A stretch of DNA of 43,657 nucleotides from NCBI GenBank assembly GCA_030066455.1, contig JASJBQ010000035.1, positions 1 to 43,657 on the forward strand. The letters are read 5' to 3'. The notes below the pieces were generated by a model. It searched no databases, had not been told where the DNA came from, and saw nothing but the letters and a program-made list of their open reading frames with translations. This DNA comes from Desulfobacterales bacterium (GTDB taxonomy: Bacteria > Desulfobacterota > Desulfobacteria > Desulfobacterales > UBA5852). A program made the position numbers and the translations under genes. Below, piece by piece: positions 22,953 through 43,657 of the stretch (position 1 is the stretch's first letter; every line of letters starts with the position of its first letter).

Positions 22953-24626
22953 ATGCAGGGGAACGAACCGATTACGACCACAACCATCGGAACCTGGCAG
23001 CCCGACGAAGACGAGATCCCGCAGGAAGGTCGCTATGCGCTGGAAGCGGCCCTTTTGCGGGCAGGCGCTCCGCTTTTTCTTGTTCGTCATCAATCGCGGC
23101 TGGCCGTGGCGACCAGCGGCCGGGCAATCGTCGACGGCCAATCCATAGGGCGCGGCGACGCAACGGCGCGGCATTTTCCGCTGGTGGCCTGGGTGCCACC
23201 CGTTTCGCCGCAGACCCTGGGCAGCGCCGCTTTCCGCCAAGCCTTCGGTCTGCGATACGCCTACGTCATGGGGGCCATGGCCAACGGCATCACCTCGGTC
23301 GAGATGGTGGCCGCCGCCGGCAATGCCGGCATGATCGGCTTCTTCGGTGCCGCCGGGCTGACCCCGGACCGGATCGAACCGGCCATCGACCGTCTGGAAG
23401 CCATGCTGCCCAAGGGGGCGTTTGGGTTCAACCTGATTCACAGCCCCCACGAACCCGAGATGGAAGCCGCGGTGGCGGACCTTTATCTTCGCCGCGGGGT
23501 CCGCAACATCAGCGCCGCGGCCTACCTGCGGCTCACTCTGCCCCTGATCCGCTACCGTCTCCACGGCATCCACCGCGATGGCCAGGGACGCGTCGTCTGC
23601 CCTAACCGGGTGGTGGCCAAAGTCTCCCGGGTGGAGGTGGCCCGCCAGTTTTTCGCGCCGCCCCCGGAAAAACTGCTGGCCCACCTGGTTCAGGAGGGCA
23701 CGCTTTCCGAGGCCGAAGCCGAAATGGCGCAAACGGTCCCGGTGGCCTCCGATCTGACCGCGGAAGCCGATTCCGGCGGCCACACCGACAACCGGCAGGC
23801 GCTCACGCTCCTGCCCACCATGATGGGGCTGCGGGATGAAATGGCGGCCCACTACGGCTATGCCGAACCGATCAATGTCGGGCTGGCCGGCGGTATTGCG
23901 ACACCCCAGGCAGCGGCGGCGGCATTTGCCATGGGGGCCGACTATATTCTCACCGGCACGGTAAACCAGGCCTGTGTCGAGTCGGGCACCTCGGATCGTG
24001 TGCGCCAGATGCTGGCGGAAGCGCAGCAGGCGGACGTGGCCATGGCGCCCTCGGCCGACATGTTCGAAATGGGCGTCCGGGTCCAGGTCCTCAAGCGGGG
24101 GACGATGTTCGCCTTGCGTGCCCAGAAACTCTATGATTTCTACCGGCAGTACGACGACTGGGATCGCATTCCCGCCAAAGACCGTGTCCTGCTCGAACGC
24201 GATTTTTTCCGTTGCACCTTCGATGAAGAGTGGCGCCAGACCCGCGATTTCTTCCATCAGCGCGACCCGCGGCAGATCGAACGGGCCGATAAGGATCCCC
24301 GCCACAAAATGGCGCTGGTGTTCCGGGCCTACCTGGGAAAATCTTCGAAATGGGCCAACACCGGCGAACCCTCGCGCCAGATGGACTACCAGATCTGGTG
24401 CGGTCCCGCGATCGGTGCCTTCAACCAGTGGACCCGGGGTTCCGACCTCGAGCAGCCGCAACAGCGTGAATGCGTCGGCGTGGCCCTCAACTTGATGCTG
24501 GGAGCAGCGGTGGAGGCACGCACCGCTGCGCTCCGGCAGCAGGGCGTTCGGCTGCCGGCGGCGATCAGCCGCTTCAAACCCCTGCCGCTTTCAAAAATCC
24601 GCTCGCTGCTCTCCGCTGATTCCTGA
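22953..24626 (+). CDS. pfaD: PfaD-type enoyl reductase of a Pfa (PUFA-type) synthase
   Basis: A roughly 557-residue flavin-dependent protein of the nitronate monooxygenase/PfaD family that acts in trans as the enoyl reductase of polyunsaturated fatty acid-type synthases. Family stretches are AYVMGAMANGITSVEMVAAA near the start of the barrel, IGFFGAAGLTPDRIE, GAFGFNLIHSPHEPEMEAA, the flavin phosphate-binding GLAGGIATPQAAAAAFAMGADYILTGTVNQ (shown in parts: GLAGGIATPQ and GADYILTGTVNQ) and the PfaD-only tail with QMDYQIWCGPAIGAFNQW. I chose the ATG at 22953 because GGAG sits nine bases upstream; GTG at 22938 is an alternative. It is the first gene of the lipid cluster, converging on the regulator gene and separated from it by about 70 bases. 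Confidence 0.93.
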   Translation: MQGNEPITTTTIGTWQPDEDEIPQEGRYALEAALLRAGAPLFLVRHQSRLAVATSGRAIVDGQSIGRGDATARHFPLVAWVPPVSPQTLGSAAFRQAFGLRYAYVMGAMANGITSVEMVAAAGNAGMIGFFGAAGLTPDRIEPAIDRLEAMLPKGAFGFNLIHSPHEPEMEAAVADLYLRRGVRNISAAAYLRLTLPLIRYRLHGIHRDGQGRVVCPNRVVAKVSRVEVARQFFAPPPEKLLAHLVQEGTLSEAEAEMAQTVPVASDLTAEADSGGHTDNRQALTLLPTMMGLRDEMAAHYGYAEPINVGLAGGIATPQAAAAAFAMGADYILTGTVNQACVESGTSDRVRQMLAEAQQADVAMAPSADMFEMGVRVQVLKRGTMFALRAQKLYDFYRQYDDWDRIPAKDRVLLERDFFRCTFDEEWRQTRDFFHQRDPRQIERADKDPRHKMALVFRAYLGKSSKWANTGEPSRQMDYQIWCGPAIGAFNQWTRGSDLEQPQQRECVGVALNLMLGAAVEARTAALRQQGVRLPAAISRFKPLPLSKIRSLLSADS

Positions 24627-24696
24627 CGGCGAACCGTTGGACTAAGGCTGCCGTCTGGGCACCCGATGCAAACGGATGGCGGGCGCTGGCTATCTC

Positions 24697-25269
24697 TCAG
24701 GGGGCCTTAAGACGGTTGGCGAACCGATCCGCCACATTCGAAATCTCCAAGAGGCGGCGAACAGGTGGGAATCCGCCCTCGAAGCGAACCGCAGAGGGCA
24801 TGAGGGTTGTTTCGGTGTAGCTTTCCTGCCAGCGGGCCGGGTTTTCGCCGGTCGTTTTCTGCCGGTTCTCGATTTCTCGTATATGGTAGGTCAGACGAAC
24901 GCTTCCACGCCCCTCCTCCGGCGCAGGCCCCCTATCTAAGATGTGGATTTCATATCGCGGCCCACCGACGGCGCCGCCATTGCCGGCGGTGGGCCTGACA
25001 AGGTGCCCGTCCAGTATCCGGCCTTGCATCCATCCGCTGATATCGGCGATCACCTGCCGTGCCTGGGGGATGGACAAGCCCAGTCCGGAAACCATGAATC
25101 CTCCCAGATAGACGATAAACGCCTCACGCGGGCTGAACTGGCGGGCGTAACCGGATTGAAGTCCTCCCAGGGGATCGGGCGGCAGGAATTCCCGCGACCA
25201 ACGTTTCCAGCGATTGAGCGGGATCATCAGCAAGCGGGAGATTTCGCGGCTGGAATAAAAACGAAGCAT
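24697..25269 (-). CDS. MerR-like helix-turn-helix regulator between pfaD and pfaA
   Basis: The 190-residue protein opens with a MerR-like winged helix region (FYSSREISRLLMIPLNRWKRWSREFLPP, given here in part: FYSSREISRLLMIPLNRWKR), then QFSPREAFIVYLGGFMVSGLGLSIPQAR as a second helical part. The C-terminal 110 residues (GGPRYEIHILDRGP..., SVRLTYHIREIENRQ) look like a small beta domain of unknown ligand. It is read divergently from pfaA and sits in a position to control it. The ATG at 25269 is preferred: the near-consensus promoter at 25278-25306 would start transcription almost at this codon, so the message is probably leaderless. The cluster role is inferred from position only. Confidence 0.75.
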   Translation of the reverse strand: MLRFYSSREISRLLMIPLNRWKRWSREFLPPDPLGGLQSGYARQFSPREAFIVYLGGFMVSGLGLSIPQARQVIADISGWMQGRILDGHLVRPTAGNGGAVGGPRYEIHILDRGPAPEEGRGSVRLTYHIREIENRQKTTGENPARWQESYTETTLMPSAVRFEGGFPPVRRLLEISNVADRFANRLKAP

Positions 25270-25277
25270 GGCCACTG

Positions 25278-25377: not shown

Positions 25378-28300
25378 ATGACGACGAGAATCGATACCGC
25401 CATGACAGCAACAGACAAATCGACCCTACCGGTGGCCGTGATCGGACTGGGGTGTTTCTTCCCGCGGGCCACAGGGGCCCATGCCTACTGGCACCTGCTC
25501 TATCACGGCAAAGACGCCATCACCGATGTTCCGACCACCCACTGGTCGCCGGCCGACTACTTCGACGCCGACCCCGGCCGCAAGGACCATGTCTACTGCC
25601 GCCGGGGTGGTTTTTTGTCGCCCCTGGCCTTCGACCCGACGGAATTCGGTATACCGCCGTCCAATCTGGAATCGACGGACTCCTCCCAACTCATCGGACT
25701 GATGGCCGCTAAAACGGCCCTTGATACGGCAGGCTACGGCAACGATGTCGACTTCGACCGTGATCGCACCAGCGTGATCCTGGGCGTTACCGGCACCCAG
25801 GAACTGGTCATCCCCTTGAGCTCGCGCCTGAGCTGGCCCAAATGGAAGAAGGCCCTCGCCGACGCCCAGGTCGATCCGGACAAGGCCCGGCAGGTCATGG
25901 AATCGCTGGCGGACGAATATGTCGAGTGGCAGGAGAACTCCTTCCCTGGACTGCTGGGCAACGTCGTGGCCGGCCGCATCTGCAACCGTCTCGACCTGAA
26001 CGGCACCAACTGCGTGGTCGACGCGGCCTGCGCCAGTTCGATGAGTGCCATCAATCTGGCCCTCCTGGAACTCTATACGGGGCGCAGCAAGATGGTCGTG
26101 ACCGGCGGGGTGGACACGCTCAACGACATTTTCATGCACATGTGCTTTGCCCGCACGCAGATTCTCTCGCCCACCGGGGACGTACGCCCTTTTTCCCAGG
26201 ATGCGGATGGTACGGTATTGGGGGAGGGGGTCGGCATTCTGCTTCTCAAGCGCCTGGAAGACGCTCGGAACGACGGCGACCGGGTACTCGCCGTCATCAG
26301 GGGCATCGGTGCCAGCAGCGACGGCAAATCCCAGAGCATCTATGCACCGCGGGCGGAAGGGCAGCTCAAGGCCCTGCGCCGGGCCTATGCCGCCGCCGGC
26401 GTCGACCCCCGGTCGGTCGATCTGATCGAAGCCCACGGCACCGGCACCCGCGTGGGCGACAAGATCGAGATCGAGGCCCTCAAGATGCTTTTCGATGAAA
26501 ACGGCGCTCACAAGCATTGTGCCCTGGGGTCGGTCAAATCCATGATCGGCCATACCAAGGCGGCCGCCGGGTCGGCCGGACTGATCAAGGCTGTGTTGGC
26601 CCTGCATCACAAGGTGTTGCCGCCGACCCTCAAAATCGAACAGCCCGACCCGGAAATCGGCCTGGCGGACAGCCCGTTTTACCTCAACGCCGCCGCCCGC
26701 CCCTGGTTCCGCCGCCAGGCGCAGCCCCGCCGGGCAGGCGTCAGCGCCTTTGGATTCGGCGGCAGCAATTTCCACATGGTACTCGAAGAGGACCAGCCGG
26801 AACGCAGCGTGGTGGCCTGGGACGGATCGATCGAAATCATCCCCCTGGGGGCGAACACGCATCCTGAACTCGTTGACGCGCTCGGGCAGTTGCGCCAGCG
26901 CCTCCGTCAAGTCGAAACCCCGTCGGATCTGCCCCATGCCGCCCTCGAGACGCGCCAGAACTTCGACCCCGATGCCGCCCACCGGCTCATTATGATCCTG
27001 CATCGCGAAGAGGGCGACGACGGACCTGAATGGAACTGGCCGTCCGTCCTGGATGAAGGCCATCAGGGGCTTGAAGCCAACGGCGATCAGCCCTTCTGGT
27101 TCGGCCGTTCCTGTTTCTACGGCCAGGGGGCCAAACCCGGACCGGTGGCTTTTCTCTTCCCCGGCCAAGGCAGCCAATACCTCCAGATGGGGCGCGACTG
27201 GGTCGCCTGGTTTCCGGAAGCGCTGGCGTCGCTGGATACCGCGGCCGCACACTTCGACCAGACGCCTCCCCTGACAGATCGCATCTACCCGCTCGTGGAC
27301 GAGGCGCAGGAAAAGGCGCTCGAGGAAGCCCTGCGTGACACGGCCGTGGCCCAGCCGGCCATCGGGGCCGTCAGCGTGGCCATGGAAAAAGTCCTGCGTC
27401 GTTTCGGCGTCCGGCCCGAATTTACCGGCGGCCACAGTTACGGGGAACTGACCGCTCTCTACAGCGCGGGCTGGATCGATGAAGGGACCCTCTACGACCT
27501 TTCCGTGTTGCGGGGGAAGTTGATGGCGGCCGCCGGAGGCCCCGATGGATCATCCAGCGGCACCATGACGGCGGTCAAGGCGCCACTCGACAAGCTGGAC
27601 GCTCTGCTGGCTTCCGAAAACCTGGACGTCGTCCTGGCCAATCGCAACAGCCCCAGCCAGGGGGTGCTTTCGGGATCGGTGGCGGCCATCGAACAGGCCG
27701 AGGCGGCCTGCAAAAAGCATAAGTTCCGGACCATCCGACTGCCCGTGGCGGCCGCCTTCCACAGCCGCCTGATGCAGGACGCCCAGGCGCCTTTCGCCGC
27801 GGCGCTGCAGGAAACCCCTTTCCTCCCCGGAGATATCGCGGTTCTGGCCAATACGACCGGCCGGCCCTACCCGAACGAACCCGATCAGATCAGAACCATT
27901 CTCGGGGATCACCTGCTAAATCCCGTCAATTTCGTCGACGAGATCGAAAACCTTTTCCAGGCGGGCGCCCGGATATTCGTCGAGGTCGGCCCCAAGACCG
28001 TTCTTACCGGGCTCGTACGCCAAATCCTCAAGGGACAGGCGGTCCAGGCCATGGCGGCCGACGCCGGTGGCGGTCGCACCTTCGGCATCGATGATCTGGC
28101 CACGCTTCTCTCCAAGCTGGCCGCCCTTGGCTGCGCGGTGGATTTTTCCCAATGGGAGGCCCCCAACGGCAAACCCCGACGTCCCCGGATGAAGGTTCCG
28201 ATTTCGGGCGCCAATTTTCGTCAACCCAAACCCCGAAAAGCCGCTGACCGCAACGCGACGGACCGTTCCCCGGCGGCCGGAATGCCGGCGTCGCCGCCGG

Positions 28301-31300
28301 AAGGCGCGGGCGGACCCGTGCCACAACCCCGTCCAGCCGCAGCTACAGACGCACACCGGCCGCGGGCCGCCGCTAGCGAAACAGCGTTAACCCCCCCGGG
28401 GAGCATCAAACCAATGCCCAAACCAGACAACCCTGACGCTTCCCGGATCCGGGATGCTTTCGAACTTGTCCAGCAGGGGCTGCAATCGCTCCAGGCCCTT
28501 CAGCAACAGACCACCGCGGCGCATCATCAATTTCTGGAGACTCAGGAGCAGGCCAGTCGCACACTCCAGGAAATGATGGCCAGCACGAAGCGCTTTGCCG
28601 AAGCGGCGCTGGGCATCAGCGGAACCCCGGATGCGCAGACGCGATCGCACGCTGCGATGCCGCTCCCGGAGCAAGCGCCGCCGACGCCCCCTGCCGCGAC
28701 GCTCTCCGCCCCTGCAGCCGCGACGGCGCCCAATCCGGTCCCGAAAGTCGCCGCGCCCCCACCTTCCAGCGCCCCGCCGGATCGTCCGGTCGCCGCGTCT
28801 TCGTCCGCGGCCGAAGATGTGCTACGCCAGGTGGTCAGCGAATTGACCGGCTACCCCGAGAACATGCTCGGTATGGCGATGGATCTCGAATCGGATCTGG
28901 GCATCGATTCCATCAAGCGCGTCGAGATCCTCTCGACGCTGGAGGAACGAACGGGCGTCCTTCCGGACAGCAGTCCGGAAACGATGGCGCAGCTCCGAAC
29001 CCTCGGCCAGGTGGCCGAATTCCTGGCAGGGTCGTCCTCGGCGTCTTCAGCGGCCGATGCGACACTGCCCACGGCCCCCTCTCCCCCGGCGGCTGCCGGC
29101 CAGGCGGACGACCATATCGCCGCCATTCTCGTGGGCGTGGTCAGCGAATTGACCGGCTACCCCCCGGACATGCTGAGCCTCGACATGAATGTGGAATCGG
29201 ACCTGGGGATCGACTCCATTAAACGCGTCGAGATCCTGTCGGCGTTGGAAGATCGCCTGCCCGACCTGAACGCGGTGACGCCTGACGAAATGGCCGAGCT
29301 CAAAACCCTGGGCCAGATCGCAGCCAAACTGGCCCCCACTGCGGGGGATGCGGCGGCGCCGACGGCTCAAGCCGCGGTGCAACCTTCCGCCTCGCCCGCG
29401 GAAATCGCCACGACGGTAATGGCGGTGGTCAGCGAGCTGACGGGCTACCCTGTCACCATGCTGACGCCGGAGATGGAGATCGAATCCGACCTGGGCATCG
29501 ACTCCATCAAACGCGTCGAAATCCTGTCGACCCTTGAAGGCCGCCTCCCCGAACTGCCCGCCGTCGCTCCGGAGGACATGGCCGGACTCAAGACCCTCGG
29601 ACAAATCGTTGCCCACCTGGATCAGAACACACCGGCGGCCCCGCCGCCTTCCGCCGCGCAAGCCCCTGCACCGCCCGAACAGACCCCGGCCGTCGAGCTG
29701 TCGCCCCTGCGTCGGATCGTCCGTGTGACGCCCCTGGAAATTCCCCGGGCCACCCGTCCCGATCTACCTGCCGGGCGGCGCGTCTATTTAACCACCGACA
29801 AGGCCGGCCTGTCGCATGCCTTGGCCGACACCCTTTCCCAGGCGGGGCTGCGGACCGTTCAGATATCAGCGGATATTCTGGCCCACCGTGATACTCTACC
29901 CGATGCCTGCGGTTTGATCATCGTCGGCGAGGCCGAAGGCGGTTCCGAGCAAACCAGCGAAGACGACCGGAACCTGGCCGGACATGCCTTTGAGCTGCTG
30001 AAACATCTGGGGCCGTCGCTTCAGGCCTCGGCCAAACAGGGCGGCGCTTTTCTGGCCACCATTGCGCGCATGGACGGGCGGCACGGTTTCGGCGGCGGCC
30101 CGCTGGCGCGACCCCTGCAAGGCGCGTTGACCGGATTGGCCAAGACCGCCGCTCTGGAGTGGGAGAACGTCTCCTGCCGGGCCCTGGATGTCGCCCCCGA
30201 CTGGCAGGACAATCCCGGTATTGCCCGCCAGGTGACCGACACCCTTTTCCATGCCGACGTGGAAATGCCCGTCGAAATCGGCCTGGCCCCCGACGGGGCC
30301 TGCCGCCTGGCGCTGGAAACCACCTCCGCGGACGATGCATCCCCGGAACCTGTCCCTTTGGAAGACAATGCGGTCGTGGTCGTCTCGGGGGGCGCCCGCG
30401 GGGTGACCGGCGCCGCGGCCGTGGCGCTGGCCCGTTCGCGGCCGCTGACCTTTATCCTCCTGGGCCGCTCCCCTCAGCCTTTTGACGAACCCGAATGGCT
30501 TCAGGGCCTCAATGCGCAGGGAGCCATCAAAAAAGCGATCATGGCGCATGAATTCAAACATGAGCAACCGACGCCCCAGGCGGTCGAGGCCGCTTACCGG
30601 CGCCTGATGCAGAATCGCGAAATCAATACCACCCTGGCCGACCTGGCGACCGCCGGTGCGTCCGCACGCTATTATGCCGTCGACATCTGCGACGGCCCCA
30701 AACTGAAAGCCGTGATCAACGATGTCCGTATGGTCCATGGCCCCGTCAAGGCCCTGATTCATGGGGCCGGCATTCTGCAGGACCGCCTCATCATCGAAAA
30801 AACCCCCGAGCAGTTTGCACGGGTTTTCGACACCAAAGTACGGGGTCTGCAGAACCTTCTGGGGGCCACGGCCGACGACCCGCTTGAATGGATCGTCCTT
30901 TTTTCCTCCGTCGCCGCCCGTTTCGGCAACGTCGGCCAGGCCGATTATGCCGCCGCCAACGAAGCCCTCAACAAAATGGCCCAGTGCGAAGCGTTCGCGC
31001 GAACGAACTGCCGGGTCAAGTCCATCAACTGGGGGCCTTGGGACGGGGGCATGGTTTCGGCGGCGCTCAAAAAAGCGTTCGCACGCCGCGGCATTCCGCT
31101 GATTTCCATGCCGGCCGGCACGCGCGCACTGACCGCCGAAATGCGCGCGGGCGCCGACAAAGCGGTCGAGGTGGTGATCGGCGCCGAACTTCCGGCGGAC
31201 GGAGACCGCTCACAACAGGACACGCAACCTCCGTCGCCTTCCGAGGCGTCCCATGCGCCCACCACCACCGCCTTCCAGGGCGTCGTCAGTCTGGAAAGCT

Positions 31301-32121
31301 ACCCGGTTCTGGACGATCATCGGCTGGACGGAAACCCCGTTGTTCCGATGGCGCTGATAGCGGAGTGGCTCGGTCACGGTGCACTTCACGATCATCCCGG
31401 GATGGTCCTGACCGGCCTGGATGACATGCGTCTGCTCAAGGGGATCGTGTTGGACAACGAGCGGCCCCGCCCGATTCGCGTTTTGTCCGTCGGCCGCGAA
31501 TCCCACCCGGACGGCTTTCAGATCCGGCTGGAGTTGCATAATGGGCAGGCGCCCGGCCAGAACGTGATCCATTGCCGGGCAACGGCCCTGGTTGCGGACC
31601 GGTTTGCATCGCCGCCGGTTTTCGATATCCCCCAGAGCCTCGGCAGGGACAATTATCCCCGCTCGCCCGAAGGCATCTACGCCGACATCCTGTTTCATGG
31701 ACTGCAGCTGCAGGGCCTGCGGCGCGTGGCGGCCAGTTCGCCTGAGGGTATGCGGGCCGAAATCGCCACCGCCCCGGCACCCTCGTCATGGGTCAAGGAT
31801 CCGGCGCGCAATCATTGGATTGCCGATCCGCTGATCATGGACTGTGCCTTTCAAATGGCCAGCCTGTGGTGCTATGAGCAATCCGGCAAGGTATCCCTGC
31901 CCAGCTATTTCGCCGCCTACCGCCAGTACTGCCGCCGTTTCCCCGCCGGCCGCATCGAGGCGGTCCTGATAGCCCGTGAACGGGCACAGCATAAAGCGGT
32001 TGCCGACTTTTATTTCCTGGATCCGGATCGGCAGGTGGTAGCCACCATTCATGGTTTCGAAGCCGTCATGGATACCCATTTGATGCAGGCGTTCAAACCG
32101 GGGCGCTCCCACGCCGCCTGA
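25378..32121 (+). CDS. pfaA: PfaA-type multienzyme synthase: KS-MAT-ACP-ACP-ACP-KR-DH
   Basis: An iterative type I lipid/polyketide synthase of 2247 residues. Domains in order: ketosynthase (about 15-460) with C218 in VVDAACASS, H353 in EAHGTGT and H392 in SMIGHTK; malonyl transferase (about 560-880) with S687 in GGHSYGEL; a Pro/Ala-rich linker; three acyl carrier domains with phosphopantetheine serines S1178, S1280 and S1376, each in DLGIDSIKRVEIL; ketoreductase with SGGARGVTG near 1670, S1844, Y1857 and N1861; and a C-terminal PKS-type dehydratase with H1981 (DHRLDGNPVVP) and D2155 (DCAFQ). All key residues are present. Marine PfaA proteins usually carry five or more carriers. The ATG at 25378 is chosen before the KS; ATG 25402 is possible. 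Confidence 0.93.
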   Translation: MTTRIDTAMTATDKSTLPVAVIGLGCFFPRATGAHAYWHLLYHGKDAITDVPTTHWSPADYFDADPGRKDHVYCRRGGFLSPLAFDPTEFGIPPSNLESTDSSQLIGLMAAKTALDTAGYGNDVDFDRDRTSVILGVTGTQELVIPLSSRLSWPKWKKALADAQVDPDKARQVMESLADEYVEWQENSFPGLLGNVVAGRICNRLDLNGTNCVVDAACASSMSAINLALLELYTGRSKMVVTGGVDTLNDIFMHMCFARTQILSPTGDVRPFSQDADGTVLGEGVGILLLKRLEDARNDGDRVLAVIRGIGASSDGKSQSIYAPRAEGQLKALRRAYAAAGVDPRSVDLIEAHGTGTRVGDKIEIEALKMLFDENGAHKHCALGSVKSMIGHTKAAAGSAGLIKAVLALHHKVLPPTLKIEQPDPEIGLADSPFYLNAAARPWFRRQAQPRRAGVSAFGFGGSNFHMVLEEDQPERSVVAWDGSIEIIPLGANTHPELVDALGQLRQRLRQVETPSDLPHAALETRQNFDPDAAHRLIMILHREEGDDGPEWNWPSVLDEGHQGLEANGDQPFWFGRSCFYGQGAKPGPVAFLFPGQGSQYLQMGRDWVAWFPEALASLDTAAAHFDQTPPLTDRIYPLVDEAQEKALEEALRDTAVAQPAIGAVSVAMEKVLRRFGVRPEFTGGHSYGELTALYSAGWIDEGTLYDLSVLRGKLMAAAGGPDGSSSGTMTAVKAPLDKLDALLASENLDVVLANRNSPSQGVLSGSVAAIEQAEAACKKHKFRTIRLPVAAAFHSRLMQDAQAPFAAALQETPFLPGDIAVLANTTGRPYPNEPDQIRTILGDHLLNPVNFVDEIENLFQAGARIFVEVGPKTVLTGLVRQILKGQAVQAMAADAGGGRTFGIDDLATLLSKLAALGCAVDFSQWEAPNGKPRRPRMKVPISGANFRQPKPRKAADRNATDRSPAAGMPASPPEGAGGPVPQPRPAAATDAHRPRAAASETALTPPGSIKPMPKPDNPDASRIRDAFELVQQGLQSLQALQQQTTAAHHQFLETQEQASRTLQEMMASTKRFAEAALGISGTPDAQTRSHAAMPLPEQAPPTPPAATLSAPAAATAPNPVPKVAAPPPSSAPPDRPVAASSSAAEDVLRQVVSELTGYPENMLGMAMDLESDLGIDSIKRVEILSTLEERTGVLPDSSPETMAQLRTLGQVAEFLAGSSSASSAADATLPTAPSPPAAAGQADDHIAAILVGVVSELTGYPPDMLSLDMNVESDLGIDSIKRVEILSALEDRLPDLNAVTPDEMAELKTLGQIAAKLAPTAGDAAAPTAQAAVQPSASPAEIATTVMAVVSELTGYPVTMLTPEMEIESDLGIDSIKRVEILSTLEGRLPELPAVAPEDMAGLKTLGQIVAHLDQNTPAAPPPSAAQAPAPPEQTPAVELSPLRRIVRVTPLEIPRATRPDLPAGRRVYLTTDKAGLSHALADTLSQAGLRTVQISADILAHRDTLPDACGLIIVGEAEGGSEQTSEDDRNLAGHAFELLKHLGPSLQASAKQGGAFLATIARMDGRHGFGGGPLARPLQGALTGLAKTAALEWENVSCRALDVAPDWQDNPGIARQVTDTLFHADVEMPVEIGLAPDGACRLALETTSADDASPEPVPLEDNAVVVVSGGARGVTGAAAVALARSRPLTFILLGRSPQPFDEPEWLQGLNAQGAIKKAIMAHEFKHEQPTPQAVEAAYRRLMQNREINTTLADLATAGASARYYAVDICDGPKLKAVINDVRMVHGPVKALIHGAGILQDRLIIEKTPEQFARVFDTKVRGLQNLLGATADDPLEWIVLFSSVAARFGNVGQADYAAANEALNKMAQCEAFARTNCRVKSINWGPWDGGMVSAALKKAFARRGIPLISMPAGTRALTAEMRAGADKAVEVVIGAELPADGDRSQQDTQPPSPSEASHAPTTTAFQGVVSLESYPVLDDHRLDGNPVVPMALIAEWLGHGALHDHPGMVLTGLDDMRLLKGIVLDNERPRPIRVLSVGRESHPDGFQIRLELHNGQAPGQNVIHCRATALVADRFASPPVFDIPQSLGRDNYPRSPEGIYADILFHGLQLQGLRRVAASSPEGMRAEIATAPAPSSWVKDPARNHWIADPLIMDCAFQMASLWCYEQSGKVSLPSYFAAYRQYCRRFPAGRIEAVLIARERAQHKAVADFYFLDPDRQVVATIHGFEAVMDTHLMQAFKPGRSHAA
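28820..29620 (+). repeat. Three tandem acyl-carrier-domain repeats inside pfaA
   Basis: Three carrier units of about 210 coding bases repeat with a period of about 290-305 bases, separated by Ala/Pro-rich linkers. Units one and two share a 25-base identical run around GTCAGCGAATTGACCGGC (near 28832 and 29138), which indicates recent duplication or gene conversion; unit three is more diverged at the same place. Confidence 0.85.
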
Positions 32122-34684: not shown

Positions 34685-35296
34685 CTAAGCCAAGCCAGCT
34701 TTACGTTTGATGCGCACCAGCCCTGGGCTGTTATGCAGATACATCAAAGGTGAACACAAGCCCGCAGCCAAAAACCGGGATTCGAGCATATCAAAAAGCA
34801 CGGGGCGGTCCGGCCAGCGGAAACGCTTTGCTTCGGTTTCCAGGCGCCGCCAGGTTTCCACGGACCGCGGGTCCGCCGCTCTCATCTCCTCCAGCGCCCG
34901 ATCGCACAAAAACATTTCGCAAATCAGCGGTTTGATGTGCCAGCAGCAGCCTTGCGTTCCCAGGTAGACGCATTTCAGGTCGCCACGCGACTGCCCAAGA
35001 GATGCCAACAGACGATCCAGGTCTTGCGGCGGCGCGCAGAGCGCATTGATCACCAGATCGGCAAAAAAAGTGATGATGCCGTCTTTGTTGCAGCAGGCGC
35101 TCAGCTGACTTCGAAAGCAGGCGTGGGTGCAAATGGCGCTCAAATGACGGCGCTGATGATGCCGGACGTCCTCCCGGAACCGGAGGTAATCCCTGCACAT
35201 CCGAAGCAGCTGGTCACGTTCCGTTGCGGACGCTTCGCGCAGATGGCGAACCACCATTTCCTGGCTCTTGAGTTGTTCTTCACGATAGGTGCTCAT
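34685..35296 (-). CDS. Conserved cysteine-rich protein, function unknown
   Basis: A 203-residue soluble protein with a cluster of cysteines likely to hold a metal or Fe-S centre: ICTHACFRSQLSACCNKDGI (about 55-75), then CAPP, LKCVYLGTQGCCWHIKPLICEMFLCD (given in part: GTQGCCWHIKPLICEMFLCD, about 115-135). The CxxxC...CC pattern with the later CC...C...C recalls the YkgJ-type metal-binding families, but I cannot assign one. The N-terminus is highly charged and helical. GGAG stands five bases before the ATG at 35296. A promoter candidate lies at 35355-35383 in the region shared with the divergent pfaC leader. Confidence 0.68.
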   Translation of the reverse strand: MSTYREEQLKSQEMVVRHLREASATERDQLLRMCRDYLRFREDVRHHQRRHLSAICTHACFRSQLSACCNKDGIITFFADLVINALCAPPQDLDRLLASLGQSRGDLKCVYLGTQGCCWHIKPLICEMFLCDRALEEMRAADPRSVETWRRLETEAKRFRWPDRPVLFDMLESRFLAAGLCSPLMYLHNSPGLVRIKRKAGLA

Positions 35297-35651: not shown

Positions 35652-38600
35652 ATGACCGAAAAGAGTTCTATGCTCTCGGAGAACAGCATTGCCATCGTAG
35701 GCGCGGCGGGTATCTTCCCGGACGCCGACGATACCGCAACCTTTTGGAAGAATATCGCGGCCGGTCACTGTGCCATCGCTCCCGTGACCTCCGAACGCTG
35801 GGGGGTCCCGAGCGCGGAAATCATGTCTGCAGGCATCGAAACCGACAAGGTCCGTTCCCTGCACGCCGGGGTTATCGGCAGAATTCCCTTCGCAAGGGAT
35901 GCCTTTGACCTCCCCGCCGGGCTCGAAGCGGTTCTGGATCCCCTCCACCGCCTGGTGCTGACCACCGGCCGGGAAGCGCTGTGCGACTGCATCGGCCAAG
36001 GCCCGGACCGCGAGCGCACCGGCGTCATCCTGGCCTCCATCGCGCTGCCCACCGAGGCGGCTTCGGCCCTGACCCGCGAAGTCTATGCCTACCTGCTGGA
36101 GACCAAGTTGTTTCCCGCTTCCCCGCCCTCGCCACCGTCAATCGATGCCCACCGCGCACTGGCCGCGCGTGTCACCGCTTTTCCGGCGGCCCTGCTGGCA
36201 TCAACCCTCAACCTCGGGGGCGGGACGTTTACCCTCGATGCCGCCTGCGCCTCGTCGCTGTACGCGATCAAACTGGCCTGCGACGAGCTGCGCGCCGGGC
36301 GGGCCGATGCCATGCTGGTGGGTGGTGCGGCGCGCACCGATCTTCTCTACACCCAGATGGGATTCACCCAGTTGCAGGCGCTCAGTCCGACCGGACGCTG
36401 CGCCCCTTTCGATGCCGATGCCGACGGGCTCGTCGTGGGCGAGGGCTGCGGGTGCATCGTCCTCCGGCGTCTAGCGGATGCCCGGCGCGACGGCGAGCGC
36501 ATCTACGGCCTGGTGGCTGGAGCGGGCCTATCCAACGACATGCGGGGCAATCTGCTGGCCCCCGACAGCGAGGGACAGTTGCGGGCCATGCGGATGGCCT
36601 ATCGTCAGGCGGGCTGGCGACCTTCCGACATCGACCTCATCGAATGCCATGGGGCCGGCACCCCGCTGGGGGACCGCATCGAGCTGCAAAGCCTGGCGGC
36701 GTTGTGGCAAAACGAAAAGGTACTCCCGGGTCAGTGCCCGATCGGATCGATCAAATCCATGACCGGCCACCTGCTCACCGGCGCCGGGATGGCCGGCCTG
36801 ATCAAGGTCCTGCTGGGCATGCAGCATAAAACGCTGCCCCCGTCGCTGGGGTTCAGCGCTGCGCCCGCCGACAGCCCCCTGGAAAACGGCCCTTTTCGCA
36901 TCCAGACCAAGACGGCCCCGTGGAAGCGACGCGACCGCGACCGTCCACGCCGCGCGGCGGTAAGCGCCTTCGGTTTCGGCGGGATCAACGCCCACCTGCT
37001 GCTGGAAGAGTTTCGTCCTGATCAGCCGCGGCCCGCTTCGCCTGCGGCCGAGGTTCATGCGGACCATGCGCTGCCTGCTGTGCGCATTACGGCCCCCACA
37101 GAGCCGGCGGTGGCCATCGTCGGCATGGACGCCCATATCGGCCGGACCAAAGGCCTCAGGGCTTTGCAGGAAGCGGTCTTCAACGGGCGCACCCCGTTCC
37201 GGCCGGCACCGGCGGCGCGCTGGAAGGACTGCCCGGGCCTGGTCGCCGATCTGCTCGGGGGCAAAAACGTCCCGGGCAACTATCTCGAGGCATTGGAGAT
37301 CCAACTGGGGGCCTTCGGCATCCCGCCCAACGAGCTGGAGGACATTCTGCCCCAGCATCTGCTCATGCTCGCCGTGGCGGCCGGCGCCCTGGATGATGCC
37401 GCCATGCCCCAGCGCGCGGCGCGACCGCGCATGGGGGCCGTCATTGGAATGGAATTTGATCTCGAGGACACCAATTTCCACCTGCGATGGCGGATGCCGG
37501 AGCTGGTATCCCAGTGGCGGCAGAAACACCGCTTGTCGACCGATCCCGAGGAAAACCGCCAATGGAGCGCGGCCTTGAAAGCCGAGGTCAGCCCGCCGCT
37601 GACCCATTCTCGGACGCTGGGCTCCCTGGGCGGCATCATTGCCAGTCGGATTGCCCGCGCCTTCCGCTTTGGGGGCCCCAGCTTTGTCGTCTCCGGAGAA
37701 GAACTCGCAGGCCTTAAAGCGCTGGCCATCGCCCGCCGGGCACTCCAGAACCACGAGGTCGATGCCATGCTGGTGGGGGCCGTCGACCTGCCGGGCGATC
37801 TGCGGCGTGTGGCGGCCGGCGAGCGCCTGCGGGCGTTCAGCCGACAACCCGTGCCCAATCCCTTCGATGCCGCCGCCGACGGGACGCTTCCCGGTGAGGG
37901 CGCCGTGGCCCTGGTCCTTAAACGACTCGACGACGCCCGCGTCGAAGACGACCGCGTCTATGGCCTGGTCCAGGGGATCGGTTCGGCCTCCGGGGCGCTC
38001 GCGAGCGAAACCGGAAACGAACTGACCGTTGCCCTTGAGAAGGCCCTGCAACGCGCCCTGGAAGACGGGCCGACGCCGGCTGCAGCGATCGACCTGATCG
38101 AATCCCACGGCAGCGGCCATCCCCTGGAAGACCGGGCCGAACACGATGCCCTGGCCCGCAGCATGACGGAAAACCGTGCGCCGCTGGCCGTGGGGTCGGC
38201 CAAAGCCACGCTGGGTCACTGCGGGGCGGCCGCCGGCCTGGCCTCCGTGGTCAAAGGCGCCCTGAGCCTCTACCATCGGATCATCCCGCCGTTGCCCGCC
38301 TTCCGGACGCCGCCGCCGGGCTGTTGGCCGCCGGAGCGTTTCCATCTTCCGGTACGCCCCCTGCCCTGGCTTCGCGACCGCCAGGCAGGCCCACGGGCGG
38401 CTGTCGTAACGGCACTGGCCACGGACGGCAATGCCGGCGCCGCGATCCTTGCGGAGCCCCCCCTTTCCGCAGTCAAGCCGTCGGCGGGGACTGCGTCTGA
38501 ACCGGTCGACCCTCTGGGGCTTCCGCCCTTCGGCCTTTTCGTTCTCAAATCCCACACGCGGGCGGGGTTGACGGCAGCCCTCGGGCGTCTGGCCGGACAG

Positions 38601-41600
38601 ATCGAAGCCGCACGTCGCCGCCAGACGCCCATCGCCGAGGCGGCTCGCGCCTGGTACCGACGCCACCCCCCCGCATGGTCGCAGGCGCATACCCTCTGCC
38701 TGGTGCTGCGGGAGGACGATGACATCCCGCGCGCACTCGAGCGCGCCCGGCACCAACTCGAGGGTAAGCCCCTCCGGGGCAGGGTTTCCTCTTTTTTTAG
38801 GTCCGAACCCCTTGCCGCCGGGGGCGACCTCGCCTTCGTCTACCCGGGCGCCGGCAATGCCTACGCCGGTATGGCCCGCAAGCCCGGCCTGCGCTGGCCA
38901 GCCGTCCTGCGGGCCGAAGCACGGGAGACGGACCACCTGGCCACCCAGATCCGGCCCGATTTAACCATGCCCCTGCGCAGCGACTGGTCGGCAGGCTGGG
39001 AACAAGGGGCCAACGCCCGTCTCAACGCCGACCCCATGGCCGTCATCGCCGCCCAGGTGGTATACGGGTGCCAGATGACCGGTCTCTATCGGGAGCTGGG
39101 CCTGCAACCCGCCGCCGTCATCGGCTACAGCCTAGGGGAAACCGTGGGCTATTTCGCCACCGGGGCCTGGCCCGACCGCGATCGCATGCGCACGCGCATC
39201 GAGGCCTCACCGCTGTTCCGCACCGAATTGTCCGGCCCCTGCCGGGCGGCCGCCCGGGCCTGGGGGTTGGCGCCCGGCCGGGACGTGGACTGGCGGGCCG
39301 TGCTGGTGAACCGTCCGGCCGATGAGGTGGGTCGCGCCATCGAGGGCATGCGCGCGGTGCGCCTGCTCATTGTGAACACCCCCGAGGAGTGCGTCATCGG
39401 CGGCCACGCGCCCGATGTGGCCGCCGCCGTGAAGCGGCTGAAAGCCGAGGCCCTCGATCTGGAAGGCACGGTGGCGGTGCACTGCGACGCGGTCGAGCCG
39501 GTGGCCCAGGCCTATTTCGACCTGCACAGCTTCGAAACCCGGCCGGCGGCGGGCGTGCGCTACTACAGCTGTGCCAACGCTGCGGTCATCCCACTCACCC
39601 GTGAGTCCGCGGCCCAGTCCCTTCTGGATCAGGCCATGGCGGGATTCGACTTCACACGCACGATCAATCAAGCCTACCAGGACGGCGTGCGGCTGTTTCT
39701 CGAAATGGGCCCCCAGGGATCATGCACCCGCATGATCGACCGAATTCTGGGCGAGCGCCCCCACCTGGCCCTCTCGACCTCGCACCGGGAGGACGAAGAC
39801 GGTTTGGAGGTCGCCCGAACCATTGCCGCTCTGGCGGCCGAGGGGCTTGTTGTTGATCTGGACGCCTATTTCCGCCTGCCTGCCGCAGAAGCGGAACCCG
39901 ATCTGCGGACCGGCCAGCTGCCGGTCAAAAACATTGCCAGCGGCGGACGGCCCGTCCGCCCAACCCCGCCGCCTGCGGGTCGCACCATCGCCCCCGCCAC
40001 AAGGAATGCTTCATCCAATGCCGATGCTCCTGACCGGGCCGCCGGGAAGCCAAACGTGCCGGGCCCCGAAACCGCGACGGATCACGCCGTTCAGCCTGTC
40101 CTGGCACGCTCCCGGGCGCTGATGGACCGGATGAATGCCCAAATCGCGGAAACCGCCCGGGCGCACCGGCAATACCTGGAGATGAGCCAGCAGCTGTCGC
40201 AAGAATATGCGGCCGCCTTCGATCTGCGCAACCGCCTGCTGGCGGACATGACCGCGTCCGGGGAGACTCCCCCGTCCGGGGGGCCCGCAAATCCTGCCGC
40301 AACGCCTTCCCAACCAGGCTATACGGACACCCAACCGGCTTTTTCGCGCGAGATGTGCATGGAGTTTGCGGTGGGCTCGGCGGCCCGCGTGCTGGGCGCT
40401 GCGTTCGCCGATCTGGATAAATTCCCGGCCCGGGTGCGTCTGCCGGACGAACCGCTGATGCTGGTGGATCGCATCCTCAGCGTCGAAGGCACACAGGGAG
40501 AGCTGGGCCCGGGCCGCATCGTCACCGAGCATGATGTCCTGTCCGGCGCCTGGTACCTGGACGCCGACCGGGCACCGGTCTGCATCGCGGTGGAAGCCGG
40601 GCAGGCCGATCTCTTTTTGAGCAGCTACCTGGGCATCGATCTCGAGGTCCGGGGCGAGCGCACCTATCGCCTGCTGGACGCCGCGGTCACCTTCCACCGC
40701 GGCCTCCCGCGCCCCGGCGATGTGATCCGCTATGAGATCGCCATCGAGAAGTTCATCCGCCAAGGTGAAACCTGGATGTTCTTTTTCCATTTCGACGGCT
40801 ATATCGGCGCAGACCACCTGATCACCATGCGCGACGGCTGTGCCGGGTTCTTCACGGCCGAGGAAGTGCGGCAATCCGGCGGCATCCTGCTCAATGCGGA
40901 GGACACATCCCGGGTTGCGGGCCGCCGCCCGGCCGACTGGCAACCGCCGGTGCCGCTGGTCAAGGAATCCTACGACGACGCGGCGGTCGAGGCCCTGCGC
41001 CGGGGCGAGATGGCCGCCTGTTTTGGAAACGGCTTCGCAGGTGTCGTCATCCCGCCAACCCTGCGCCTTCCGGGGGGGCGGATGCGCCTGCTGGAGCGGG
41101 TGCTGGCCGTCGACCCGCAGGGCGGGCGCTACGGTCTGGGCAGCATTCGCGCCGAGGCCGACATCCATCCGGACGACTGGTTTCTGACCTGCCATTTCGT
41201 GGACGATATGGTCATGCCCGGAACCCTGATGTACGAGTGCTGTGCCCACACCCTGCGCATCCTGCTCCAGCGGATGGGCTGGATCAGCAATGCCGAAGGC
41301 GTCTGCTACGAACCGGTGGTGGGCAATCGCAGCGTGCTCAAATGCCGCGGCCCGGTCACGCCGGAAACCCGCCACGTGGTCTATGCGGTCGAAATCAGCG
41401 ACATCGGCTTCAACCCCGCACCCTACGTTCTGGCGGACGCCCATATGTATGCCGACGGCCAGCACATCGTCATGTTCCGCGGCATGTCCATGCAGATGAG
41501 CGGCATGACCCGCGAGGGCCTGGAGGCTTTCTGGCAGAGCCGACGCTCGCCGGCCTCCGCCGAAATCCCGTGCAAGGACGCCTTCTCCCGCGAACAGATC

Positions 41601-42713
41601 CTGGCCTTTGCCCGCGGCAAGCCGTCGGATGCCTTCGGAGCACCCTACCGGCCGTTTGACCGCCAGCGCTTCATCGCCCGCCTGCCCGCCCCCCCGTATT
41701 CGTTCATCTCGCGGGTGACGCAGGTCGACGCGGCGCCCTGGGAGCTCAAGCCCGACGGCTGGGCCCGCATCGTCTGGAACATGCACCCGGACGACTGGTA
41801 CTTCCGCGCCCACCGCAGCGACGGCATGCCGCTTTGCATCCTCATGGAAATCGGTCTGCAAGCCTGCGGTTTCCTGGCCGCCTACATGGGATCGGCCCTC
41901 AAGAGCGAAAAGGACCTGCGCTTCCGCAACCTCGACGGGCAGGCCACGCTTGAGGCCAACGTCATGCGCGACCGGGGGCCGGTGGACGCCCGGGCGCGCC
42001 TGCTGTCATCGTCCATGGCCGGCGACATGCTGATCGAACAGTTCGCCTTCGAGGTTTATCAGCAGGCGCAGCGGGTGTATGCCGGCGAGACGTCGTTCGG
42101 TTTCTTCACCGAAGCGGCGCTGGAGCGCCAGGTCGGACTGGGGAAGGATGACCATTCGGGCGATTGGGCGCGTTGGCGCGCGGACCGACCGACGGAACCC
42201 CTGGTGCTGGCCGACCTCGCGCCCCTTGCGCCGGATGATCCCGGCATGGATGATATGGCGGACTTTGGTCTTCCAGCCGCCGCCCTGCGGATGATCGACC
42301 GCATTGAGGTCTTCGACCCCCTCGGCGGCGACCAAGGCCTGGGGTATCTGCTGGCCGCCAAGGACGTCGATCCTAAGGCCTGGTTTTTTAGGGCACACTT
42401 TTTTCAGGACCCGGTATGCCCCGGTTCGCTGGGGATCGAGTCCTTTATGCAGCTGCTGCGGTATGCCGCCCGCGAGCGCTGGCCCGATCTGGCCGGCACC
42501 CATATGCCCCTGATCGCCACCGACCGTCCCCATATCTGGCGCTACCGCGGGCAGGTCCGCCCCGCCAATAAACGCATCACAGTGGAAGCTCTGATCCACA
42601 CGGTTGAAGACGGTCCCCAACCCGCGCTTTGGGCGCACGGCTACTTGAAAGTCGACGGGCTTTGCATATATAAGATGCAGGATTTCGGACTGCGCCTGGT
42701 CAAACGGAGATAA
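35652..42713 (+). CDS. pfaC: PfaC-type multienzyme synthase: KS-CLF-AT-DH hot-dog domains
   Basis: A 2353-residue partner of the PfaA-type protein. Domains in order: active ketosynthase (about 10-470) with C199 in LDAACASS, H333 in ECHGAGT and H373 in SMTGHLL; a second KS-like chain-length factor (about 490-930) whose cysteine position holds E684 (VVSGEELAGL); acyltransferase (about 1040-1390) with S1160 in IGYSLGE; a linker; then four hot-dog units making two FabA-like dehydratase pairs. The first unit lacks the catalytic His (WYLDADRAPVC), the second has H1848 (CHFVDDMVMPG), the third AHRSDGMPLC and the fourth H2249 (AHFFQDPVCPG). The order matches myxobacterial Pfa3, but no C-terminal acylglycerophosphate acyltransferase is present. 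The ATG at 35652 directly precedes the KS; upstream in-frame codons run through the palindrome. Confidence 0.92.
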   Translation: MTEKSSMLSENSIAIVGAAGIFPDADDTATFWKNIAAGHCAIAPVTSERWGVPSAEIMSAGIETDKVRSLHAGVIGRIPFARDAFDLPAGLEAVLDPLHRLVLTTGREALCDCIGQGPDRERTGVILASIALPTEAASALTREVYAYLLETKLFPASPPSPPSIDAHRALAARVTAFPAALLASTLNLGGGTFTLDAACASSLYAIKLACDELRAGRADAMLVGGAARTDLLYTQMGFTQLQALSPTGRCAPFDADADGLVVGEGCGCIVLRRLADARRDGERIYGLVAGAGLSNDMRGNLLAPDSEGQLRAMRMAYRQAGWRPSDIDLIECHGAGTPLGDRIELQSLAALWQNEKVLPGQCPIGSIKSMTGHLLTGAGMAGLIKVLLGMQHKTLPPSLGFSAAPADSPLENGPFRIQTKTAPWKRRDRDRPRRAAVSAFGFGGINAHLLLEEFRPDQPRPASPAAEVHADHALPAVRITAPTEPAVAIVGMDAHIGRTKGLRALQEAVFNGRTPFRPAPAARWKDCPGLVADLLGGKNVPGNYLEALEIQLGAFGIPPNELEDILPQHLLMLAVAAGALDDAAMPQRAARPRMGAVIGMEFDLEDTNFHLRWRMPELVSQWRQKHRLSTDPEENRQWSAALKAEVSPPLTHSRTLGSLGGIIASRIARAFRFGGPSFVVSGEELAGLKALAIARRALQNHEVDAMLVGAVDLPGDLRRVAAGERLRAFSRQPVPNPFDAAADGTLPGEGAVALVLKRLDDARVEDDRVYGLVQGIGSASGALASETGNELTVALEKALQRALEDGPTPAAAIDLIESHGSGHPLEDRAEHDALARSMTENRAPLAVGSAKATLGHCGAAAGLASVVKGALSLYHRIIPPLPAFRTPPPGCWPPERFHLPVRPLPWLRDRQAGPRAAVVTALATDGNAGAAILAEPPLSAVKPSAGTASEPVDPLGLPPFGLFVLKSHTRAGLTAALGRLAGQIEAARRRQTPIAEAARAWYRRHPPAWSQAHTLCLVLREDDDIPRALERARHQLEGKPLRGRVSSFFRSEPLAAGGDLAFVYPGAGNAYAGMARKPGLRWPAVLRAEARETDHLATQIRPDLTMPLRSDWSAGWEQGANARLNADPMAVIAAQVVYGCQMTGLYRELGLQPAAVIGYSLGETVGYFATGAWPDRDRMRTRIEASPLFRTELSGPCRAAARAWGLAPGRDVDWRAVLVNRPADEVGRAIEGMRAVRLLIVNTPEECVIGGHAPDVAAAVKRLKAEALDLEGTVAVHCDAVEPVAQAYFDLHSFETRPAAGVRYYSCANAAVIPLTRESAAQSLLDQAMAGFDFTRTINQAYQDGVRLFLEMGPQGSCTRMIDRILGERPHLALSTSHREDEDGLEVARTIAALAAEGLVVDLDAYFRLPAAEAEPDLRTGQLPVKNIASGGRPVRPTPPPAGRTIAPATRNASSNADAPDRAAGKPNVPGPETATDHAVQPVLARSRALMDRMNAQIAETARAHRQYLEMSQQLSQEYAAAFDLRNRLLADMTASGETPPSGGPANPAATPSQPGYTDTQPAFSREMCMEFAVGSAARVLGAAFADLDKFPARVRLPDEPLMLVDRILSVEGTQGELGPGRIVTEHDVLSGAWYLDADRAPVCIAVEAGQADLFLSSYLGIDLEVRGERTYRLLDAAVTFHRGLPRPGDVIRYEIAIEKFIRQGETWMFFFHFDGYIGADHLITMRDGCAGFFTAEEVRQSGGILLNAEDTSRVAGRRPADWQPPVPLVKESYDDAAVEALRRGEMAACFGNGFAGVVIPPTLRLPGGRMRLLERVLAVDPQGGRYGLGSIRAEADIHPDDWFLTCHFVDDMVMPGTLMYECCAHTLRILLQRMGWISNAEGVCYEPVVGNRSVLKCRGPVTPETRHVVYAVEISDIGFNPAPYVLADAHMYADGQHIVMFRGMSMQMSGMTREGLEAFWQSRRSPASAEIPCKDAFSREQILAFARGKPSDAFGAPYRPFDRQRFIARLPAPPYSFISRVTQVDAAPWELKPDGWARIVWNMHPDDWYFRAHRSDGMPLCILMEIGLQACGFLAAYMGSALKSEKDLRFRNLDGQATLEANVMRDRGPVDARARLLSSSMAGDMLIEQFAFEVYQQAQRVYAGETSFGFFTEAALERQVGLGKDDHSGDWARWRADRPTEPLVLADLAPLAPDDPGMDDMADFGLPAAALRMIDRIEVFDPLGGDQGLGYLLAAKDVDPKAWFFRAHFFQDPVCPGSLGIESFMQLLRYAARERWPDLAGTHMPLIATDRPHIWRYRGQVRPANKRITVEALIHTVEDGPQPALWAHGYLKVDGLCIYKMQDFGLRLVKRR

Positions 42714-42724
42714 ACCTCGGAACA

Positions 42725-43657
42725 ATGCGCTACGTGAATGTGAACATTGCCGCCATCGGCTACGAGCTGGCCCCCAACGTGGTCACGGCCGAAGACATCG
42801 AAACCCGATTGGCGCCCCTGTACGCCAAGCTGCACCTCAAAGCCGGACAGCTGGAGCAGTTGACCGGCATTCAGGAAAGCCGCTACTGGGACCCTGATTT
42901 CAAGCTTTCCCGAGGCGCCATCCGCGCCGGCCGCAAGGCGCTCGACAAGGCCGGATTCGATCCCGCCCACATCGGCATGCTGGTCTACGGCGCCGTCTGC
43001 CGCGAGAACCTGGAGCCGGCCACGGCCTGCGCTGTAGCGGACGGCCTGGGGATCGGACAAAATGCCGTAATTTATGATATTTCGAATGCTTGTCTTGGAA
43101 TGCTTAATGCAATGGTTCAGGTATCCAACGCCATTGCACTGGGACAGATCCGGGCCGGGCTGGTGGTCTCGTGCGAGTCCTGCCGCCAGATCGTGGACAG
43201 CACCATCGAACGCATGCTGGCCGCCGGCAGCATGGACGTCTTCAAGCACTGCGTGGCGACCATGACCGGCGGTTCGGGCGCCGCCGCCGTCCTGCTCACG
43301 GACGGTTCGTTCGGCACTTCCGGGCATCGTCTGCTGGGCGGCGTGGTCCGCAACGCGGTTCAGCATCACGGCCTCTGCACCTGGGGACCGGACACGGGCA
43401 TCCCGGCCAGCGCCCCCCACGTCATGAACACGGATTCGGTCGGCGTCCTCCAGAACGGGGTCAAACTCGGCCGTGAGACTTTCTTAGAACTGCAGCGCGA
43501 ATTGGGCTGGCAGGACGGTCAACCCGACAAGGTGGTCTGCCACCAGGTGGGCGCCGCCCACCAGAGTGCGATCCTCGAGGCCGTCGGCATTCCGGCCGAA
43601 AAGGATTTCAGCACCTTCCGCTATCTGGGCAACATCGGCACGGTTTCGATCGTCATG
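42725..43657 (+). CDS. oleA: OleA-type thiolase (head-to-head acyl condensation), cut by window edge
   Basis: The first 311 residues of a thiolase-fold enzyme are visible, running off the right edge. Catalytic C123 lies in DISNACLGML, the His in VVCHQVGAAHQS and the Asn in RYLGNIGTVSIV. E97 in ENLEPATAC is exactly 26 residues before the cysteine, as the conserved Glu117 is before Cys143 in Xanthomonas OleA. The N-terminal pattern (NVNIAAIGYELAPNVVT ... TGIQESRYWD) also matches OleA better than FabH. OleA joins two fatty acyl thioesters into a beta-keto acid, the first step to long-chain ketones and olefins. The gene begins 11 bases after pfaC stops, so the two are almost certainly one transcript. 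FabH-like activity is the main alternative. Confidence 0.85.
   Translation, partial: MRYVNVNIAAIGYELAPNVVTAEDIETRLAPLYAKLHLKAGQLEQLTGIQESRYWDPDFKLSRGAIRAGRKALDKAGFDPAHIGMLVYGAVCRENLEPATACAVADGLGIGQNAVIYDISNACLGMLNAMVQVSNAIALGQIRAGLVVSCESCRQIVDSTIERMLAAGSMDVFKHCVATMTGGSGAAAVLLTDGSFGTSGHRLLGGVVRNAVQHHGLCTWGPDTGIPASAPHVMNTDSVGVLQNGVKLGRETFLELQRELGWQDGQPDKVVCHQVGAAHQSAILEAVGIPAEKDFSTFRYLGNIGTVSIVM

Follow-up and report, generated by a model that had tools for sequence, protein, structure and literature searches.

Which lipid is made when the genes for a Pfa-type lipid synthase are followed directly by a gene for OleA, a thiolase that condenses two acyl chains head to head? This question is raised by contig JASJBQ010000035.1 (assembly GCA_030066455.1; the whole stretch of 43,657 nucleotides is called the window here) from a member of the Desulfobacterales, a probable sulfate-reducing bacterium. 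We consider it likely that the cluster at its end pairs a Pfa-type iterative synthase with an OleABCD hydrocarbon pathway that the synthase feeds. The product is probably a long polyunsaturated olefin resembling hentriacontanonaene (C31:9), by analogy with Geobacter bemidjiensis. The genes on which this proposal is built are as follows.

22938-24626, + strand: pfaD, enoyl reductase (TIGR02814, 639 bits, cut-off 449)
25378-32121 (start inferred), + strand: pfaA, KS-MAT-3xACP-KR-DH (TIGR02813, 1509 bits, cut-off 1010)
35652-42713 (start inferred), + strand: pfaC, fused pfaB/pfaC type, KS-CLF-AT-FabA-like dehydratases (domain matches; 79% identity over 2358 columns to the pfaC of a relative, locus L001)
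42725-43657, + strand: oleA, head-to-head condensing thiolase, incomplete at the window end (PRK09258, 396 bits, cut-off 285)

Identity of the Thiolase

The original prediction described a thiolase 11 bases after pfaC with a Glu 26 residues before its active Cys. Both details are borne out: the pfaC stop codon ends at 42713 and the oleA ATG lies at 42725, and Glu97 and Cys123 are separated by 26 residues. The window holds 311 of about 346 amino acids of the protein, with the remainder past its end, and this portion includes the catalytic residues Glu97, Cys123, His273, and Asn303. All four positions are kept in 16 of 16 aligned OleA sequences, as is the Glu-Pro pair (Glu97-Pro in the window).

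Grouping with OleA rather than with FabH had been set beforehand as a check, and the scores place the thiolase with OleA. The window protein reaches only 54 bits against the FabH model TIGR00747, compared to the 396 bits listed above for the OleA family, and the full-length OleA of a relative reaches 459 bits against PRK09258. The best structural match of that full-length protein in the PDB is 3fk5 (208 bits, E 1.9e-60), and no other synthase III exceeds 78 bits (E 1e-20). The 3fk5/3row structures matched with E values of about 2e-60 to 8e-57 carry PDB titles of 3-oxoacyl synthase III, and we take them to be OleA from Xanthomonas campestris. Judged by its sequence, therefore, the window thiolase is an OleA; model scores, structure matches, and catalytic residues speak strongly against a FabH identity. 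One published study describes the catalytic Glu as unique to OleA homologs and finds Glu-Pro in all but two of its authors’ OleA proteins (PMC7064751).

Composition of the Pfa Synthase

Intact KS, MAT, ACP, KR, and DH residues had been claimed for the pfaD, pfaA, and pfaC homologs, and curated-model scores, domains, and motifs agree with this claim. A profile scan of PfaA recovers KS, an acyltransferase, three ACP stretches, KR, and a PKS-type DH, and the protein carries the motifs DAACASS, GHSYGE, three copies of LGIDSI, and YAAAN. By Pfam, PfaC has a KS-CLF-AT-FabA layout, with two KS stretches, an AT at 1214-1436, and the best FabA stretch at 1877-2012 (ORF numbering, for open reading frame). 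Its KS carries DAACASS and looks active, its CLF site is without Cys, and its AT motif is GYSLGE, in a domain that scores below threshold (68 bits against a PfaB cut-off of 144, and 25.7 against a Pfam cut-off of 32.7). Pfam detects three FabA stretches in the window PfaC and four in the homolog from a related genome (G074); four hot-dog-like segments are apparent when the window sequence is read by eye, and four FabA-like dehydratase segments are described for Shewanella PfaC (PMC4882568).

The earlier pfaC gene call thus stands as to the presence of the gene, with the correction that it is a pfaB/pfaC fusion that likely starts later, at 35652. Because the longest ORFs extend upstream of the conserved N-termini, the ATG codons at 25378 and 35652 are the likely starts of pfaA and pfaC. 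The window therefore encodes the PfaA domain set, a PfaC with fused AT, and PfaD, which are among the features of synthases of pfaBC-fusion types (such as I and C of Shulse and Allen). No PfaE-type phosphopantetheinyl transferase (PPTase) is found among the window ORFs scanned, and this enzyme is presumably supplied in trans. The PPTase family PF01648 is matched in 10 of 11 relatives and also in 10 of 14 control genomes; the family is therefore not specific to PfaE.

The ole Genes of Relatives and the Proposed Pathway

A second check set beforehand concerned ole genes near oleA, and these are found in relatives, the window itself ending within oleA. One scan of species genomes gave five relatives: three Desulfobacterales metagenome-assembled genomes (MAGs), Desulfatitalea sp. 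BRH_c12, and one deltaproteobacterial MAG, whose OleA proteins are 86-91%, 69%, and 66% identical to that of the window, respectively. Homologs of oleB, oleC, and oleD directly follow oleA in three of these loci (L002, L004, L005), whereas the other two stop within oleC (L001) or oleD (L003). The same oleB-oleC-oleD order follows oleA in genomes G074, G183, and G008, where pfaD, pfaA, pfaC, and oleABCD lie in order on one contig. Presumably, oleBCD sit just past the window end in this genome as well.

In the proposed pathway, PfaA, PfaC, and PfaD would assemble a polyunsaturated acyl chain, with PfaA providing the carrier domains. OleA would take chains from these domains and fuse two of them into a long beta-keto acid. 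The Ole enzymes act in the order OleA, OleD, OleC, OleB; here OleD would reduce the beta-keto acid, OleC would close a beta-lactone, and OleB would release CO2 to leave a long polyunsaturated olefin. If oleBCD follow oleA as in the relatives, the expected end product is therefore an olefin, and the ketone or beta-keto acid that the original prediction also allowed becomes less expected. The other part of that claim, one dedicated pathway, is supported by linkage and conservation. Gene content, catalytic residues, linkage, conservation, and the oleBCD genes of relatives are read directly from sequence, and the substrate and product proposed here extrapolate from them.

Distribution across the Order and Phylum

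A draw of 194 genomes was made from the order of G005, which is probably the Desulfobacterales, judging by the names of L001, L003, and L004, whose genomes are in the draw. OleA proteins at least 50% identical to that of the window (the neighboring type) are present in 124 of the 194. Among the matches listed, PfaC accompanies this OleA in 116 of 124 genomes, versus 20 of the 70 genomes without it, and PfaD over its cut-off is present in 111 of 124 versus 28 of 70; these genomes are interrelated and many are drafts, and the Fisher values ignore kinship and incompleteness. The matches listed cover pfaC in 136 of 144 matching genomes and pfaD in 139 of 140 over the cut-off, and three (G082, G112, G149) of the eight genomes with neighboring-type OleA and no listed PfaC have weaker PfaC matches. 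OleA matches below 36% identity (such as G063, 31%) were left out, and the matches counted include fragments (G036 and G062, for instance, at about 100 residues each).

Linkage is similarly recurrent. Among the matches listed, 82 of the 116 genomes with both genes have a same-strand pfaC no more than 1 kb upstream of oleA. In 11 of 25 same-contig pairs (chosen by eye), pfaD shares the strand of oleA and lies 16-25 kb upstream of it. The phylum was sampled with 297 genomes, which gave an OleA match at E 1e-40 in 30, of which 21 are absent from the order draw and may lie outside the order. Nine of these 21 also match PfaC, with pfaC upstream of oleA at gaps of 9 to 649 bases in seven. Thus, the pfaC-oleA pairing recurs across the order and is not a one-off arrangement.

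Weighing the Alternatives

Several observations weigh against a dedicated Pfa-Ole pathway. The pfaC and oleA genes are on different contigs in 28 of the 116 genomes with both, and on the same contig but 2 kb to 1.8 Mb apart in another six. In G005 and G004, the pfaD-pfaA block stands apart from pfaC-oleABCD: in the former it shares the strand of oleA and lies about 24 kb downstream, and in the latter it is on the other strand, about 53 kb upstream. A family scan covering ten downstream Ole proteins gave strong matches of OleC and OleD to olefin beta-lactone synthetase and 2-alkyl-3-oxoalkanoate reductase models, yet these fall below the equivalog cut-offs, and OleB matches haloalkane dehalogenase models below cut-off. 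No PPTase match was obtained in G001, the closest relative by PfaC, a genome that may be incomplete. The two genomes whose gene order is nearest to that of the window (G074 and G183) encode PfaC proteins without the AT domain (1914 and 1898 amino acids), and three extra ORFs (about 221-225, 344-354, and 565-567 amino acids) precede pfaC there, downstream of a conserved ORF called u2. The AT domain is therefore not a fixed feature of these clusters. Finally, 13 of 124 genomes with PfaC of at least 45% identity are without neighboring-type OleA, and the synthase may therefore have other outlets. This identity limit was chosen by inspecting match rows, and the 124 genomes passing it are a set distinct from the 124 with neighboring-type OleA.

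The alternative that best survives, and which we regard as unlikely though serious, is that the synthase mainly makes polyunsaturated fatty acids (PUFAs) for phospholipids while OleA draws off a share, as in Shewanella species that produce eicosapentaenoic acid (EPA). The 13 genomes just mentioned are in keeping with this possibility, and both EPA and hydrocarbon are products of Shewanella pealeana (PMC6463001). However, the closeness of pfaC and oleA, both here and in the 82 genomes described above, suggests one shared purpose. We consider it quite improbable that OleA acts without OleBCD to give a long polyunsaturated ketone as end product. Expression of pfaA-E with oleA alone in Escherichia coli does yield a 31:8 ketone (PMC6463001), and any oleBCD genes fall outside the window, but oleB-oleC-oleD follow oleA in the relatives named above except where L001 and L003 end within these genes. 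Least credible of all is the idea that the thiolase serves the Pfa synthase as a starter enzyme of the FabH type. It is encouraged by source databases that name many relatives 3-oxoacyl-ACP synthase III (and some acyl-CoA:acyl-CoA alkyltransferase) and contradicted by the family scores, the invariant Glu-Pro, and the adjoining oleBCD genes of relatives.

Relation to Known Pfa-Ole Systems

To the separate Shewanella loci named in the original prediction, linked pfa and ole loci must be added, which have already been published. In G. bemidjiensis, pfaD, A, B, C, oleA, B, C, D, and pfaE lie in tandem and C31:9 is made (PMC4882568, a 2016 review), and in Photobacterium profundum SS9 the pfa and ole operons are adjacent (PMC6463001). 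In 44 of 80 genomes, Pfa-type synthases and ole genes were reported to occur together, often in linkage, and Type I clusters were proposed to feed olefin synthesis (PMC3098273, Shulse and Allen 2011). Given the tandem cluster of G. bemidjiensis and the Type I link proposed in 2011, the window cluster is not a new kind of system.

One close parallel is this Type I secondary lipid synthase of G. bemidjiensis, also a strict anaerobe, with which the window shares the order of pfaD, pfaA, pfaC, and ole genes. The window differs in its interspersed genes (u1, DUF2914, CdaA, and u2, described below) and in having no pfaE among the ORFs scanned. In Shewanella, Pfa provides a predicted 16:4 chain to OleA, two chains are fused, and OleB, OleC, and OleD finish the olefin (PMC6463001). 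The same enzyme set and the condensation of a Pfa intermediate by OleA are thus shared with this route to 31:9, but in the window the AT is fused into PfaC and only the 11-base spacer separates pfaC from oleA. P. profundum SS9 resembles the window in the physical linkage of both pathways and differs in the thioesterase gene pfaT (orf6) between its operons. X. campestris OleABCD shares the OleA family and catalytic residues, but the substrates described for its OleA are cellular fatty acids (PMC7064751) rather than Pfa chains.

The listings of literature searches, which left subscription journals largely uncovered, showed no published account, beyond the works cited here, of a Desulfobacterales Pfa-Ole pathway, its order-wide conservation, or the OleA exchange considered below. 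Provided that the product is made, polyunsaturated hydrocarbons in anoxic settings would have a large, little-noticed source in the sulfate reducers of this order, one that requires no oxygen-dependent desaturases. In anoxic lake water, oleC genes related to Desulfobacteraceae, among others, have been reported (PMC10176705). The tight pfaC-oleA coupling also makes it possible to test clearly whether Pfa carrier domains pass their chains directly to OleA, and genomes without the neighboring OleA serve as natural comparisons.

A Second OleA Type

A second type of OleA (36-40% identity) occurs in 16 of the 194 genomes. The eight proteins examined all score above the OleA-family cut-off (405-448 bits) and retain the catalytic residues, and the neighboring type scores lower against 3fk5 than does this second type (208 versus 290 bits, one protein of each). 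Among the 124 genomes with PfaC of at least 45% identity, the second type is present in 8 of the 13 without neighboring-type OleA, compared to 1 of the 111 with it. Neither type is among the matches listed for the other five of the 13.

In these eight genomes with the second type and without the neighboring one, a close OleD is always present (in two contig pieces in G177), and OleC is near full length in seven. The eighth genome, G188, has its oleC split into two pieces some 690 kb apart (contig C1, 1360111-1360626 and 671712-672218), with oleD beside the distant piece and no neighboring-type oleA among the matches listed; this may reflect pathway loss by rearrangement, or misassembly. The oleB start lies within about 35 bases of pfaC in G191 and G188 and within about 210 in G117, and in these three genomes no oleA or credible remnant is found between pfaC and oleB. 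All of oleB, oleC, and oleD follow pfaC in G117 and G191, oleB and part of oleC do so in G188, and an oleB match lies 2 kb off in G175.

A search after pfaC for another partner enzyme, in nine genomes without neighboring-type OleA, gave nothing pointing to another lipid-releasing enzyme. The ORFs near pfaC in those loci encode a kinase and an HD-domain protein (L053), antiporter subunits (L051), a pyruvate carboxylase-like protein (L055), a SpoIIE phosphatase and a cyclase/ATPase (L048), and a protein without a Pfam match (L054). The second-type oleA does not appear to belong to a second ole cluster: the 13-16 kb covered at 8 loci of the 16 genomes contained no match to OleB, OleC, or OleD at E 1e-6, and the neighbors scanned in L033 and L036 are unrelated genes.

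On these sequence data, the simplest reading is that the second-type OleA replaces the neighboring type in trans. However, G188 hints at decay of some of these pathways instead, and the statistics are weakened by kinship and by draft assemblies. Thus, we put forward only tentatively, and as somewhat doubtful, the broader proposal that the order widely makes polyunsaturated long-chain hydrocarbons by a dedicated Pfa-Ole pathway and that several of its lineages exchanged the neighboring OleA for a distant, Xanthomonas-like OleA encoded elsewhere. Such an exchange, if true, would alter the set of acyl chains that are joined, with the Pfa synthase and OleBCD retained, and would amount to a natural experiment on how OleA determines the product. 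Six further genomes combine the second type with a PfaC only 29-36% identical and no OleD above 31% identity, and probably represent a different system.

Neighboring Genes

Four other genes are interspersed among the pfa genes of the window.

24697-25275, - strand: u1, conserved ORF in the pfaD-pfaA interval, a possible MerR-like DNA-binding protein (homologs, weak fold match)
32286-32720, + strand: DUF2914 protein (domain match; same position in G074 and G183)
32724-34163, + strand: diadenylate cyclase (CdaA) with YbbR domain (domain matches; same position in G074 and G183)
34685-35296, - strand: u2, conserved Cys-rich ORF, divergent from pfaC (homologs near pfa genes)

Apart from the three extra ORFs, the order in G074 and G183 is that of the window: M24 peptidase, XerD-like recombinase, pfaD, u1, pfaA, DUF2914, CdaA, u2, and pfaC, and then oleABCD. 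G008 has M24, XerD, pfaD, pfaA, u2, pfaC with AT, and oleABCD, with no u1, DUF2914, or CdaA matches. The DUF2914 and CdaA genes, which sit between pfaA and pfaC, are conserved neighbors; judging from sequence, the former is a candidate only for a pathway role, and the latter is probably a housekeeping gene.

Seven genomes of relatives (G001-G005, G074, G183) carry homologs of u1 (172-196 amino acids), placed between pfaD and pfaA and encoded on the opposite strand. These homologs have no Pfam match and share an invariant WKRW.REFL.PDPLGG motif. A weak fold match to the MerR-type regulator CvkR (7xn2, E 0.005) makes u1 a possible regulator of the cluster.

The u2 family comprises 2857 homologs of about 200 amino acids, rich in Cys, and is represented on loci with pfa genes in L001, L044, L046, and L050, as well as in G074 (L040) and G183 (L042). 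None of the 120 homologs listed has a Pfam domain, a Pfam scan of seven members gave no credible family, and a fold search gave no usable match. Assignment to PF03692, a family mentioned in the Xanthomonas ole region (PMC7064751), was considered because of a motif resemblance and is not supported by the seven-member scan.

Of the three extra ORFs of G074, one carries PD40 beta-propeller repeats and two are without a Pfam match. The shorter PfaC proteins without an AT domain are encoded at three loci.

L040, 8263-14007: shorter PfaC without AT domain
L043, 1781-7477: shorter PfaC without AT domain
L055, 6690-12161: shorter PfaC without AT domain

Upstream of the cluster, the window also encodes a 989-amino-acid protein (17553-20522, - strand) that has the ATP-binding domain of pyruvate phosphate dikinase and weakly matches response regulators.

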